Assembly (NCBI RefSeq): GCF_004297405.1
Contig: NZ_SCVC01000042.1
Span: forward strand, 62,001-126,000
DNA from: Reyranella sp.
Lineage (GTDB): Bacteria; Pseudomonadota; Alphaproteobacteria; Reyranellales; Reyranellaceae
Direction of reading: 5' to 3'
Length of the DNA: 64,000 bases
Of this stretch, positions 52,337 through 56,076 are shown one piece after another. Position numbers and translations under genes: made by a program. Numbering within the stretch: position 1 is the stretch's first letter; each line of letters opens with the position of its first letter. The notes beneath the pieces are model-generated. The model had not been told where the DNA came from, searched no databases, and saw only the letters and a program-made list of their open reading frames with translations.

Positions 52337-53914
52337 TTACTTCTTCTTCCGCCGGTAAATCCGGTAGCGGTCGAAGTCCATAAGGTGTTCGTAATTCTCG
52401 AAGGCGTCGGCGAACACCCGGTTCTGCAGGAAGTATTCGAGGTAGTCGAACTCCTTGCCCTGGCAGCGCGGCACACCGGCGATACGGTCCACGATCAAGA
52501 GATCGGGATGCTCGCGGGCGAAGTCTTCGCTCACCGTATCGAACACGAACTTCTCGGAATCGCCCATCGTATCGGGCGGATTGTAGAGGGCAGGGAAGTC
52601 GTCGCAGGTCGCGTAGACGCCCTGCAGCACCCACATGGTGAGAAACCGCGTGGTCATGCGGCCGTTGACGTAGTTCACCATCGGCCAGAACGGGTAGATG
52701 CCCGGCGACAGGACCAGGAAGGAGCGGTGCGGCGCGTTCTGCTCGATGATGTGTTGCAGCCGGCCGCCGATCGAATCCTCGAACTGCCGCTGCTTGTAGA
52801 AGGGCGGCGTATAGAGCGCGGCCTGGAAGTAGAGCAGCACCATCAGGGTGGCGCAGATCACCGCCACCGGTAGGCGGTGTGCGCTGCGGCTGATTGGCAG
52901 GTAGCGGTCGACGGTCTGCGAGACGGTGAGGGCAGCCAGCAGGATCGCTGCCGAAAGCGCCGGCAGCACGTGATAGGGCCAACCCTTGGCCTGGCCGATG
53001 GCCGAAAGCGCGGCGCCGATGCCAAAAACGACCAGCACGCGGGCTGCGATGGTCTTGGTGAATAGGGTGGCCAGCAGGCCGAAGATCAGCAGCGCCAGCA
53101 GCGTAGGGCCCAGCACATTGCTGGTCAGCACCTCGCGCCAGCCCGAATCGCCGATCGGGGCGTAGGATTCGATGGCCAATGGCAGCACGAACCGGCCGAA
53201 GTCGGGGAACAGTGTGTACATCGACACGACATGCGCCACCGCCAGCAGACCGATGGCCCAGGGAATGGGATCGGTTAGCGTGGCGCGCCAGCCACGGCGT
53301 ACCAGCAGGTAGAGCTCCACCGCCGCCGGAATGGCGAGATAGTGCGGCTTCATCGCGAGGGCGAGGCCAGCGACAATGCCGACCGCAATGCTGGCCGTTC
53401 GTGTCGGGCTCACCCCTTCGGCCCGCGCCATCGAGGCAATCAGGTAGGGCGCGCAGGCCACGAACATGATGTGTTCGCGCTGGCCGAAATGCTCGTTGGG
53501 CAGCACGGAGAACAAGAACAGCAGCACCGGCGGCAGCAGGGCCTCGGTGAGCGCATGGTCTGCCGAGGGCACAAGATGTACGAGGCGCCGACACGCCCAG
53601 AAAGAGGCGAAGATGCCGGCGACCACCCAGGCGGTGAACCAGAAGGTCACGGTTCCGGGCAGGATCTTTGCCGTCAGCACTGGCAGGCCGTGGATGATGA
53701 AGGTCAGCGGCAGGTTCTCGTCGAGGACCTCGACATAGAGCTTCTCGCCGCCGATCCAGCGGGTCGACACGTCGAGGATGGCGGCGACGTCGTGGTTGAT
53801 GGGTGGGAAGAAATAGCCGGTCAGCCACAGCACCGGCAGGGCGAACAGGGGCGCCAGCAGCAGTCGTTCGATGCGCGGCGGAATTGTCGGGGGCTTGGTC
53901 GTGACGGTTGGCAA
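52337..53914 (-). CDS. GT-C-type membrane glycosyltransferase-like protein
   Basis: This 525-residue integral membrane protein has about ten or more helices. The N-terminal extracytoplasmic loop carries PPINHDVAAIL followed by DENLP, as in GT39/ArnT-like enzymes that use polyprenyl-phosphate sugars. The C-terminal soluble tail ends DRYRIYRRKKK. A TTG start at 53914 is used because no in-frame ATG lies nearby. It is divergent from the methyltransferase, GT2 and ArnE-like genes, so it may use the lipid-linked sugar they make. Confidence 0.65.
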   Translation of the reverse strand: MPTVTTKPPTIPPRIERLLLAPLFALPVLWLTGYFFPPINHDVAAILDVSTRWIGGEKLYVEVLDENLPLTFIIHGLPVLTAKILPGTVTFWFTAWVVAGIFASFWACRRLVHLVPSADHALTEALLPPVLLFLFSVLPNEHFGQREHIMFVACAPYLIASMARAEGVSPTRTASIAVGIVAGLALAMKPHYLAIPAAVELYLLVRRGWRATLTDPIPWAIGLLAVAHVVSMYTLFPDFGRFVLPLAIESYAPIGDSGWREVLTSNVLGPTLLALLIFGLLATLFTKTIAARVLVVFGIGAALSAIGQAKGWPYHVLPALSAAILLAALTVSQTVDRYLPISRSAHRLPVAVICATLMVLLYFQAALYTPPFYKQRQFEDSIGGRLQHIIEQNAPHRSFLVLSPGIYPFWPMVNYVNGRMTTRFLTMWVLQGVYATCDDFPALYNPPDTMGDSEKFVFDTVSEDFAREHPDLLIVDRIAGVPRCQGKEFDYLEYFLQNRVFADAFENYEHLMDFDRYRIYRRKKK

Positions 53915-53973
53915 GGCCCGGGGAAGATATCATAAGCAGACGACAAGACGAGACTTACGGAGGCCTTCACGGC

Positions 53974-54714
53974 GTGGAGCGGGCTGAATACGAGCGCATG
54001 CACGCGGTCGAGGACCGCATGTGGTGGTATCGCGGCCTGCGCGCGCTGGCGGCGGGCGAGCTCGCACGGGCCCTGGCGCGTTCGGCAGCGGCTGGCCCCG
54101 TGCTCGACGCGGGATGCGGTACGGGCGGTATGCTGCGCATTTTGGGGCCAACCGCTGCGGGACGCCCGACCCTCGGCCTGGAATATGATGCGATAGCGGC
54201 CTCGCTGGCGGCGGCCAAAGCAGGTCGGCCCGTCGCCTCGGGTTCGGTCAACGAAATGCCTCTGGGCGATGCCACGCTCGCTGGTTACGTCTCGCTCGAC
54301 GTCCTGTGTCATGGTGGTGTCGAACCAGCGAGTGCCCTGAAAGAGGCGCACCGCTGCCTCCGACCGGGCGCGATCGCGGTCTTCAATCTGCCCGCCTATG
54401 GCTGGATGTTGTCCGCGCACGACAAGCGCGTGCACAATGTCCGCCGCTTTACGCGGGGCCAGGTCGGAGCCTTGCTTGCCGGGCATGGTTTCCGTGTCCT
54501 TCGTTCGAGCTACTGGAACACCTTCTTGTTTCCTCTCATGCTTCTTCACCGACTGACCGAACGCGACGACGCCGAGAGCGATGTGCGCGACTATCCGCGC
54601 TGGCTCGACGCCTTCTTTTCGACGGCCCTTGCGGTTGAACGTGGCCTCATCGCAATGGGTCTCAGCCTGCCGTTTGGCGGTTCCCTGCTTGTCGTGGCGA
54701 CGCGCGATGAGTGA
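53974..54714 (+). CDS. Class I SAM-dependent methyltransferase (glycolipid cassette)
   Basis: This 246-residue protein starts VERAEYERMHAVEDRMWWYRG, the N-terminus of the sugar-cluster methyltransferase family. Motif I is VLDAGCGTGGML. GTG 53974 is preceded by GGAGG ten bases upstream. TTG 53908 is an alternative. The last bases overlap the ATG of the GT2 gene by eight bases. It probably methylates a sugar or lipid intermediate. Confidence 0.78.
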   Translation: MERAEYERMHAVEDRMWWYRGLRALAAGELARALARSAAAGPVLDAGCGTGGMLRILGPTAAGRPTLGLEYDAIAASLAAAKAGRPVASGSVNEMPLGDATLAGYVSLDVLCHGGVEPASALKEAHRCLRPGAIAVFNLPAYGWMLSAHDKRVHNVRRFTRGQVGALLAGHGFRVLRSSYWNTFLFPLMLLHRLTERDDAESDVRDYPRWLDAFFSTALAVERGLIAMGLSLPFGGSLLVVATRDE

Positions 54715-55747
54715 GGCAACTCTGCCGGCTCCGGCCTTGTCGATTGTCGTGCCGGTCTACAATGGCGCCGCAACGGTCGGCGATCTGGTCAAGGCGCTAC
54801 GTGCCCTCGACATCGACGGCGGTCTGGAAATCGTGCTGGCGGTCGATGGCAGCCCGGACAACAGTCTCGACGTCTGCAAGCAGCTCGCCCAGGAGCCCGG
54901 CGCGCCGATCATCGTTCTGTCGCTCAGCCGTAATTTCGGTGAGCACAATGCCGTCATGGCTGGCCTGTCGCGGGCCAGTGGTGCCTTCGCCATCACGATG
55001 GACGACGATCTGCAAAATCCACCAGAGGAGGTGAAGCGCCTCTTCGAGCATGCGCGGGACGGCGGCTACGACGCGGTCTACACCTATTACGAAGAGAAGA
55101 AGCATGCGGCGTGGCGCAACCTCGGCAGCCGGTTCACCAACTGGTGCGCCGACCGGCTGATCGACAAGCCGCCGGGCCTCTATCTGTCGAGCTTCCGTTG
55201 CATCTCCGCTTTCGTGCGTGAGCGGATCACGGCGAGCTATGAAGGCCCTTATCCCTATGTCGATGGCCTGGTCTTCCAGGTGACGCAGAATGTCGGTCGA
55301 CTGCAGGTCAGCCACCTGCCGCGCGCCGAAGGCCGCTCCAACTACACGCTGCGCCGCCTGATCAGGCTGTGGCTCGCGATGTTCCTGAACTTCTCGGTGA
55401 TGCCGCTACGGCTCGCCACCTTGCTGGGCTTGGCTTTCGGCGCGTTGGGCGCCCTTACCGCGGTGATTGTCATCGTCGAGGCGATCATCTCCGACAAGCC
55501 CCCGCAAGGCTGGGCGTCGTTGATGGTCGCCGTTCTCGTGCTGGCTGGCGTGCAGCTCGTCGTGCTCGGCATGATCGGCGAGTATGTCGGCCGCATGTTC
55601 CTGGCCGTCAATCGCAAGCCACAGTATCTCGTGCGCGAGGTCTTCCGTCGCGGTGCGGAAGGTCTCGAGGTCGAACGACCGAGGGTCGATACGCGGGCGG
55701 CGGGGCAGCCGCACCGCGAACCATCGCGGGGGGAGAGCGATCGATGA
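54707..55747 (+). CDS. GT2 polyprenyl-phosphate glycosyltransferase, ArnC/GtrB-like
   Basis: This 346-residue protein has a cytosolic GT-A domain (SIVVPVYNGAATV, VDGSPDNS, MDDDLQNPPEE) followed by two membrane helices near residues 230-300. The connecting segment GRSNYTLRRLIRLWLAMFLNFS is characteristic of ArnC/GtrB/DPM-type enzymes. These put a sugar on undecaprenyl phosphate. The ATG overlaps the methyltransferase end and the stop overlaps the ArnE-like gene in ATGA. Confidence 0.87.
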   Translation: MSEATLPAPALSIVVPVYNGAATVGDLVKALRALDIDGGLEIVLAVDGSPDNSLDVCKQLAQEPGAPIIVLSLSRNFGEHNAVMAGLSRASGAFAITMDDDLQNPPEEVKRLFEHARDGGYDAVYTYYEEKKHAAWRNLGSRFTNWCADRLIDKPPGLYLSSFRCISAFVRERITASYEGPYPYVDGLVFQVTQNVGRLQVSHLPRAEGRSNYTLRRLIRLWLAMFLNFSVMPLRLATLLGLAFGALGALTAVIVIVEAIISDKPPQGWASLMVAVLVLAGVQLVVLGMIGEYVGRMFLAVNRKPQYLVREVFRRGAEGLEVERPRVDTRAAGQPHREPSRGESDR

Positions 55748-56076
55748 CGATCTATTATGTAGCGCTGGGGATCGGCATCCTGGCCGGTATCGGCGGTCAG
55801 ATTCTGCTGAAAGCCGGCGCCGATGCGCCCGATTTCGTGGCGCAGCTCATGCGGCCCTCCACCATTGCAGGGCTGGCGCTCTACGGCTCGGCGGCCTTCC
55901 TCTACATCGTTGCCCTGCGCAAGATTCCGGTTTCGGTCGCTTTTCCCAGCGTGTCGCTCTCCTATGCGATCGTTGCAGTGCTTGGACACTTCCTTTTCGG
56001 CGAGCCCTTCGGCATCAAGCAGATCGGCGGCATTGCCCTGATCGTGGGCGGCGTCGTGTTGATCAACCAGAGCTGA
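55744..56076 (+). CDS. ArnE/SMR-like small membrane protein, possible lipid-sugar flippase
   Basis: This 110-residue protein has four hydrophobic helices with the EmrE-like segments ILLKAGADAP and VAFPSVSLSYAIVAVLGHFLFGE. Size and helix number match ArnE/ArnF and SMR proteins. Directly after the ArnC-like GT2 gene (ATGA overlap), it is probably the partner that flips the undecaprenyl-linked sugar. A quaternary-amine exporter is less likely in this context. Confidence 0.72.
   Translation: MTIYYVALGIGILAGIGGQILLKAGADAPDFVAQLMRPSTIAGLALYGSAAFLYIVALRKIPVSVAFPSVSLSYAIVAVLGHFLFGEPFGIKQIGGIALIVGGVVLINQS

Follow-up and report, generated by a model that had tools for sequence, protein, structure and literature searches.

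A conserved four-gene cassette of Reyranella as a candidate three-component glycosylation system with a tailoring methyltransferase

We analysed a 64,000-nucleotide stretch of a Reyranella sp. genome (contig NZ_SCVC01000042.1, positions 62,001 to 126,000; hereafter the window, its genome being labelled G000), in which a four-gene cassette at 52337-56076 may encode a three-component glycosylation system accompanied by a tailoring methyltransferase. The original prediction had placed here a GT-C membrane glycosyltransferase gene divergent from overlapping genes for a methyltransferase, a family 2 glycosyltransferase (GT2) and a small multidrug resistance (SMR)-like protein; the four genes are present at these positions, and the coordinates of the open reading frames (ORFs) bear out the arrangement. 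The GT-C gene (52337..53914, minus strand) starts at a TTG and encodes 525 aa with an ArnT-like predicted fold and conserved motifs. A divergent intergenic stretch of 59 bp (53915..53973) separates its start from that of a class I S-adenosylmethionine-dependent methyltransferase (MTase; 53974..54714, plus strand), which is 246 aa long from a conserved GTG, the ORF being open from a TTG at 53908. There follow, on the plus strand, an ArnC/GtrB-like GT2 (54707..55747; 346 aa), a putative polyprenyl-phosphate sugar synthase with a DDD motif at D99-D101, and an SMR/ArnE-ArnF-like small membrane protein (55744..56076; 110 aa), a presumed flippase. MTase and GT2 overlap by 8 bp and GT2 and SMR by 4 bp (ATGA), which suggests translational coupling. 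The sequence GGAGG lies at 53959-53963, ahead of the MTase GTG, and a start codon is kept at the place of this GTG in 39 of 39 aligned relatives (25 ATG, 10 GTG and 4 TTG), so that GTG 53974 is favoured over TTG 53908 as the start.

The cassette is widely kept in the genus and, in the loci that were fetched, has a constant setting. In a set of 101 relatives, a GT-C match is found in 60 of the 61 genus genomes, with full-length matches at 75-98% identity and only fragments in G017 and G051; in the genus loci that were fetched, the cassette is flanked by the same gene clusters in the same order, and the order on the GT-C side is kept also in G061, which belongs to another family of the order. 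The presence of GT-C in nearly every genome together with the conserved flanking order indicates that the cassette is not a chance assembly, and since the flanking clusters are common to the genus loci and to the GT-C side of G061, the cassette appears to be old and vertically inherited there. Genes in the fetched loci were called with a gene caller trained on 11 genes of the window, so that starts may be misplaced and genes missed. The flanks in the window, judged by eye from the ORFs, form a catabolic region with thioesterase-like, enoyl-CoA hydratase-like and ABC transporter genes, and no other glycan genes were seen among them.

At a larger scale, we surveyed 385 alphaproteobacterial genomes and recovered GT-C (E 1e-8) in 37, the GT2 subfamily (more than 360 bits) in 33 and the MTase (profile, E 1e-30) in 56. 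In 32 of the 33 genomes carrying this subfamily, no more than 200 bp separate the MTase from the GT2. GT-C is found within 3 kb of the GT2 in 18 of the 33, and at any position in 21 of them (Fisher p 1e-16; the p values given throughout ignore the relatedness of the genomes). The families thus co-occur, as the original prediction had required of a single system; its view of the methyltransferase as an unusual member of the set has to be turned round, for of its neighbours the MTase accompanies this GT2 subfamily most constantly, and GT-C and flippase are more variable. The loci from named records are the best-scoring 80 of 551 confirmed ones, are weighted towards close relatives and in some cases end at contig ends; an intact MTase stands directly upstream of GT2 in 70 of them, an SMR gene downstream in 70 and GT-C adjacent in 53, or in 61 if a second GT-C family (c12, PMT_2) is counted. 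This second family fills the adjacent slot in eight of the 80 and, in the class survey, in loci L152, L153, L155 and L156. Among the 80 we take as genus the 35 loci with at least 79% identity to the GT2 of the window, so that L230, named Reyranella at 66%, is counted outside. The records with GT2 loci include Reyranella soli, Stella vacuolata, Desertibaculum subflavum, Ferrovibrio, Oceanibaculum pacificum, Elioraea, Crenalkalicoccus, Roseomonas, Belnapia and Roseococcus, many being metagenome-assembled genomes; the locus of R. soli (L235) has all four genes, and in Stella and Elioraea a GT-C of this family is not adjacent. Farther afield, plasmid pA of Sinorhizobium chiapasense, a megaplasmid typed as conjugative, carries a short run (L120, from 8938 onward) in which a GT2 is joined by a class I methyltransferase and by a member of the same GT-C family.

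The GT-C protein matches no Pfam or NCBIfam model at E 0.001 (and none in Pfam even at E 1), and its profile finds no PDB sequence up to E 1. Its predicted model (mean pLDDT 90, pTM 0.90) clearly has a GT-C fold, and within this fold it is likely close to ArnT. The best VIA match is ArnT 5f15 (Z 20.3, root mean square deviation 4.6 over 438 residues, full length) at 11% identity, and the ArnT structure 5ezm scores Z 20.0; Pmt4 (9i5l) follows at Z 18.9 (deviation 4.4 over 342 residues), covering residues 13-377 only, and absence from the VIA list does not exclude a family. By Foldseek E-value, the yeast oligosaccharyltransferase 7oci comes first (2.5e-5) and ArnT 5f15 third (5.4e-5). Conserved motifs of the family are NHD (D42), D65-x-N67, F143-x-Q145-R146-E147, K189-P190 and Q308-x-K-G-W-x-Y.

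The two presumed partners of GT-C are of matching kinds. GT2 belongs to Pfam Glycos_transf_2 (1e-25); its best NCBIfam model is ArnC (NF007986) at 169.8 bits, below the equivalog cut-off of 529 bits, and its best solved relatives are ArnC 9hwj (157 bits) and sll0501 (124 bits), the latter presumably of the GtrB type. The SMR-like protein matches EamA (9.9e-10) and Multi_Drug_Res in Pfam, not GtrA (PF04138), and its best NCBIfam models are ArnF (45 bits) and ArnE (40.1 bits), under the respective cut-offs of 99 and 92. Elsewhere in the window's genome, a second GT2 of the cassette type (C34:17281-18276; L002, L095) is 86% identical to the first, and the 15 kb read around it hold no match to MTase, SMR or GT-C; in a further MTase-GT2 pair (C34:49476-51086; L003, L096) the identities to the two cassette genes are 26% and 30%, and pairs resembling it are found in many genus genomes.

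The Arn system transfers 4-amino-4-deoxy-L-arabinose to lipid A by means of ArnB, ArnC, ArnE/ArnF and ArnT. The cassette resembles it in its ArnC-like GT2, its ArnE/F-like protein and its ArnT-fold GT-C, and in the DegT aminotransferase (c4, see below) found nearby in relatives. It differs in that GT2 and SMR-like scores fall far below the Arn cut-offs, in having a single SMR-like subunit in the window and an MTase, and in the very low identity of GT-C to ArnT; moreover, the relatives' aminotransferase is nearer to DesV/QdtB than to ArnB in the PDB, whereas in NCBIfam it is nearer to PseC/ArnB, under the cut-offs. In the window, the ORF list shows no ArnB-type aminotransferase beside the cassette. 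Published three-component systems, consisting of a lipid-phosphate sugar synthase, a flippase and a GT-C, decorate O-antigens (PMC11127046), and the cassette shares all three components with systems of this kind, namely Gtr (GtrA-GtrB-Gtr(type)) and the GT136 pentofuranose systems. It departs from these in having an SMR/ArnE-F-like protein instead of GtrA or MATE, in its MTase, in the sugar-making genes linked to it in relatives and in its place in the window, which is not an O-antigen locus. The small membrane protein of the window does not match GtrA; GtrA occurs in the remote relatives L164 and L165, where the same GT-C and MTase families are accompanied by a different GT2 and a GtrA-type protein (PF04138), a mixture of Arn-like and Gtr-like parts. 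We know of no aminotransferase or methyltransferase in the alphaproteobacterial Rgt systems. By description, these also join a polyprenyl-phosphate sugar synthase to lipid A transferases, with RgtE as a GT2 and RgtD and RgtF as galacturonosyltransferases of lipid A (PMC7795004). Finally, an FdtA gene joined to an aminotransferase gene like QdtB and 2oga in G022 recalls the dTDP-3-amino-3,6-dideoxyhexose pathways (FdtA/FdtB, QdtA/QdtB). The products of those pathways are used in the glycosylation of S-layers, O-antigens or macrolides, with N-methylation by TylM1/DesVI; the cassette would differ in offering a polyprenyl-phosphate route as partner, and its MTase is only generically TylM1-like. 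A limited search of the open-access literature found no description of this cassette. With a GT2 synthase, a candidate flippase and a GT-C in one locus by family and predicted fold, the logic that had been proposed by analogy to Arn and Gtr, in which the three act in succession, holds in outline, and we consider it very probable that the cassette works as a three-component system of periplasmic glycosylation.

The place of the MTase in this system is that of an accessory. It belongs to Pfam Methyltransf_11 (1.5e-11; predicted model pLDDT 94), and TylM1 and DesVI are among the many class I methyltransferases that match it at E 3e-7 to 2e-6. Among the 35 named genus loci the gene is intact in 26, reduced to remnants in two (L223, L226) and wanting in seven, and in the Ferrovibrio locus L234 it is gone while c4 and c5, the latter a short-chain dehydrogenase/reductase (SDR), are kept. 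Nine of these ten loci retain GT-C, GT2 and SMR whole, and the tenth, L225, meets a contig end before GT-C. Mapped onto a 45-row tree of GT-C, the MTase label requires five changes, three of them forced by supported branches; we take them as losses, and loss followed by regain through recombination may be an alternative. The MTase is accordingly dispensable, and as it is missing or broken in 10 of the 80 named loci we reject it as an obligatory maker of the donor substrate. Relocated copies of the cassette MTase occur in the genus as well (L071, L077, L079, L081, L083, L084, L085 and L086). In L071 the copy adjoins Ugd and in L077 a CDP-dideoxyhexose cluster (RfbF, RfbG, RfbH) with an ABC-2 exporter; the neighbours of the others were assigned by gene clusters. 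A chance match was considered for these copies and rejected, the seven intact ones forming one lineage that requires a single change (support 79/83, 80% of bootstrap trees); the copy of L084 was left out of the tree, having failed a length, identity or stop filter. In G032 and G052 cassette and relocated copies coexist. Losses and relocated copies together fit a tailoring enzyme able to act from elsewhere rather than a donor-making one.

For the acceptor we turned to the neighbours of GT-C paralogues of 24-30% identity. In L170 the genes before the paralogue are, by Pfam, aroA-, cmk-, rpsA- and HU/IHF-like ones and one with a LapA domain; L102 and L169 show these clusters too, and the three genomes belong to one genus. 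In L101 the paralogue stands after CcmH genes and ahead of an LptF/LptG gene. In L172, and by the same clusters in L171, its predecessors are genes for mipZ, an NTP transferase, Ugd and a phosphomannomutase. Genes of lipopolysaccharide (LPS) assembly or export thus appear in two of the three contexts, and because paralogues adjoin LapA-domain and LptF/G genes, LPS is the likeliest acceptor, to which we would give an even chance. Lipid A or the LPS core would be our first choice, an O-polysaccharide or a protein the second. A limited search of the open-access literature gave nothing to the point on lipid A or LPS of Reyranella.

That second choice, in which GT-C would act on an O-polysaccharide, an exopolysaccharide or a protein in the manner of Gtr seroconversion or Pmt-type enzymes, deserves serious weight as a minority view. 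It gains from the O-antigen decoration described in PMC11127046, from the closeness of the Pmt fold and the first place of 7oci by Foldseek, and from the GtrA that occupies the flippase slot in L164 and L165. It has to contend with the full-length alignment of ArnT by VIA where Pmt4 aligns over part of the protein, with catabolic flanks whose order is kept in the fetched genus loci, unlike a seroconversion island, and with the LapA-domain and LptF/G genes beside the paralogues.

Evidence on the sugar comes from two genes, c4 and c5, that recur beside the cassette outside the genus; within the genus no sugar-making genes stand beside it. In the fetched stretches of 45 loci outside the genus, c4 is present in 21 and c5 in 15. 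Against PDB sequences c4 scores 332 bits with 2oga, 312 with 7b0d, 276 with QdtB and 190 with ArnB; 2oga carries in the PDB only the name 'Transaminase', and we take it to be DesV. DesV and QdtB aminate C3, and on this resemblance c4 likely does so too. The SDR c5 (for example L140:3234-4205) remotely resembles GalE, UXS and RmlB; in the three c5 sequences aligned with two of RmlB, Asn takes the place of the catalytic Tyr in the YxxxK motif. RmlA and RmlB adjoin c5/c4 in L147, and L160 carries genes of the same clusters. FdtA, a 3,4-ketoisomerase, sits between MTase and GT-C in G096, G224 and G322, in the latter two as judged by cluster and a PF05523 match.

We tallied c4, c5 and FdtA over 27 GT2-bearing genomes, namely 24 of the 33 class genomes together with G022, G058 and G061. 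The nine class genomes outside the tally are G031, of the genus, and eight with loci L139-L141 and L143-L147, in which c4 is found in 8/8 and c5 in 7/8. A c4-type gene (1e-60) is present in 26 of the 27, c5 in 13 and FdtA in 12; one genome has both c5 and FdtA, 12 have c5 only, 11 FdtA only and three neither (p 0.0003, or 0.0015 without the genus). This complementarity makes it possible that c5 is a substitute for FdtA, unrelated to it in sequence. In the genus itself FdtA is found in 55 of 61 genomes and was not found in G019, G040, G041, G043 and G048, which are 60 to 91% complete. It is joined to a c4-type gene in the four genus genomes whose stretches were fetched (G016, G022, G042 and G058), and also in G246 and G061. 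In the G022 pair the aminotransferase scores 444 bits with 2oga and 386 bits with QdtB, and FdtA 101 bits with 2pa7. Among the nine genes of that stretch Pfam revealed, besides the pair, no glycosyltransferase, acetyltransferase or other sugar enzyme, the remainder being EamA (twice), FolB, an SDR and three ABC transporter parts, with RmlB nearby; this content would suit a free amino sugar that is used elsewhere. The cassette, which has no sugar-making genes of its own in the genus, is a natural candidate for its user there. For the lineage at large we think an aminodeoxy sugar probable as the substrate of the cassette, with methylation of that sugar by the MTase slightly favoured; that the sugar is the same in the window's own genome seems to us somewhat doubtful.

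As the best overall explanation we propose, for certain bacteria of soils and waters, a vertically inherited three-component glycosylation system with a tailoring MTase, with a probability of about 0.55. From the gene order, conservation, gene neighbours and predicted GT-C fold we infer how the enzymatic activities, sugar, methylation and acceptor might fit together. In most cassette lineages RmlA/RmlB, then FdtA or c5, then the DesV/QdtB-like c4 would probably make a 3-amino-3,6-dideoxyhexose; the ArnC-like GT2 would load the nucleotide-activated sugar onto polyprenyl phosphate on the cytoplasmic side; the MTase would N- or O-methylate it at the nucleotide or lipid-linked stage; the SMR-like protein would aid the lipid-linked sugar in crossing the membrane; and the ArnT-fold GT-C would attach it, on the periplasmic side, to an acceptor in the envelope, for which LPS, in its lipid A or elsewhere, is the likeliest candidate. 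The most specific form of this scheme is unlikely to be right in every part. In it, lipid A or LPS would receive, in an Arn-like modification, a cationic 3-amino-3,6-dideoxyhexose bearing one or perhaps two N-methyl groups. RmlAB, FdtA or the Tyr-less c5, and a DesV/QdtB-type aminotransferase would make this sugar and the MTase would methylate it; the SMR-like protein would flip it on its polyprenyl phosphate carrier, and a GT-C of a new family with the ArnT fold would transfer it.

Several observations weigh against the scheme. In the genome that holds the window (50 contigs, completeness 98.78%), FdtA, c4-type genes (1e-60) and c5 (1e-40) gave no match. Some 1.0 Mb of this genome, comprising short contigs together with the starts of contigs and the ends of ten, likewise did not show the flanks of the FdtA/FdtB locus; a gap in the assembly is here indistinguishable from real loss or from the use of another sugar. 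No c4 is present in the fetched stretch of 24 of the 45 loci outside the genus, and the best NCBIfam models of c4 are the 4-aminotransferases PseC (240 bits) and ArnB (228 bits; cut-offs 423.5 and 631), so that, NCBIfam ranking these first unlike the PDB, amination at C3 is not certain. In the genus FdtA and cassette are both near universal, a dependence between them cannot be demonstrated, and FdtA could feed another glycan; outside the genus, within the set of 101 relatives, the link to FdtA rests on few genomes (two of three with GT2 against one of 37 without, p 0.011). Fold matches of the predicted MTase model are generic, with TylM1 (6m81) at Z 16.4 and rank 48 and so not the best, and the claim of sugar methylation accordingly rests on context; the MTase is, besides, missing or broken in nine of the 35 genus loci and absent from one Ferrovibrio locus. 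As to LPS, the hint derives from paralogues at 24-27% identity, and other paralogues (L172, L171) adjoin Ugd and phosphomannomutase. A side observation concerns the assembly: the start of contig C20 of the window's genome (L296) falls within a Wzm/Wzt pair whose members share 55% and 71% identity with their counterparts in the L077 cluster, so that the assembly breaks in a polysaccharide locus.

Some of these points would suit the same machine working on an ordinary sugar (glucose, galactose, mannose, galacturonate or a 4-amino pentose) that is O-methylated, with the aminotransferase and FdtA serving other glycans. The want of FdtA and c4-type genes in the window's assembly and the PseC and ArnB ranking of c4 both favour it. 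Ugd serves UDP-glucuronate synthesis, and the relocated MTase beside Ugd (L071) or RfbF/RfbG/RfbH (L077) may serve other sugars; some GT-C paralogues likewise adjoin Ugd, and in L164 and L165 relatives of the MTase are found together with different GT2s and GtrA-type proteins. We nevertheless hold an ordinary sugar to be the less likely reading, given c4/c5 or FdtA in or beside many loci outside the genus, the c4-type gene in nearly all tallied genomes and the complementarity of c5 and FdtA.

That the SMR-like gene encodes a transporter for drug efflux, or is a passenger unrelated to the system, is quite improbable: the protein does match EmrE-type models, EmrE entries are its sole solved relatives at E 0.1 (best 0.026) and the gene is not directly downstream of GT2 in 10 of the 80 named loci, some of them cut at contig ends, but its best NCBIfam models, under cut-off, are ArnF and ArnE, it shares a 4-bp overlap with GT2 in the window, and it adjoins GT2 in the other 70. 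A hopanoid as acceptor is more improbable still, for although a published survey has hopanoid-gene entries for Reyranella, it gives Ferrovibrio, Oceanibaculum and Elioraea as genera without shc (PMC12583986), of which Ferrovibrio (L242, L244) and Oceanibaculum (L247) carry all four cassette genes and Elioraea carries MTase, GT2 and SMR with no adjacent GT-C of this family. Going by that survey, whole cassettes in shc-less genera lead us to set a hopanoid aside as the general acceptor, so that of the acceptors first suggested (lipid A, a hopanoid or a glycan) the neighbours of the paralogues favour LPS and the hopanoid falls back.

Returning to the three-component system with its tailoring MTase, we have added to the original prediction a likely class of sugar, the dispensability and relocation of the MTase and a second GT-C family for the same slot. 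A likely function can also be offered for a GT-C family that lacks a Pfam or NCBIfam model, and tailoring of a lipid-linked sugar by the MTase becomes testable, with its natural losses as a comparison set. If the proposed pathway is true, c5 would represent another way of achieving the 3,4-keto shift, unrelated to FdtA. Cationic sugars of the Arn kind alter surface charge and can underlie intrinsic polymyxin tolerance; if this cassette does handle an aminodeoxy sugar, the known ways of decorating the Gram-negative envelope with amino sugars would reach beyond Arn, in a part of the Alphaproteobacteria that has received little study.

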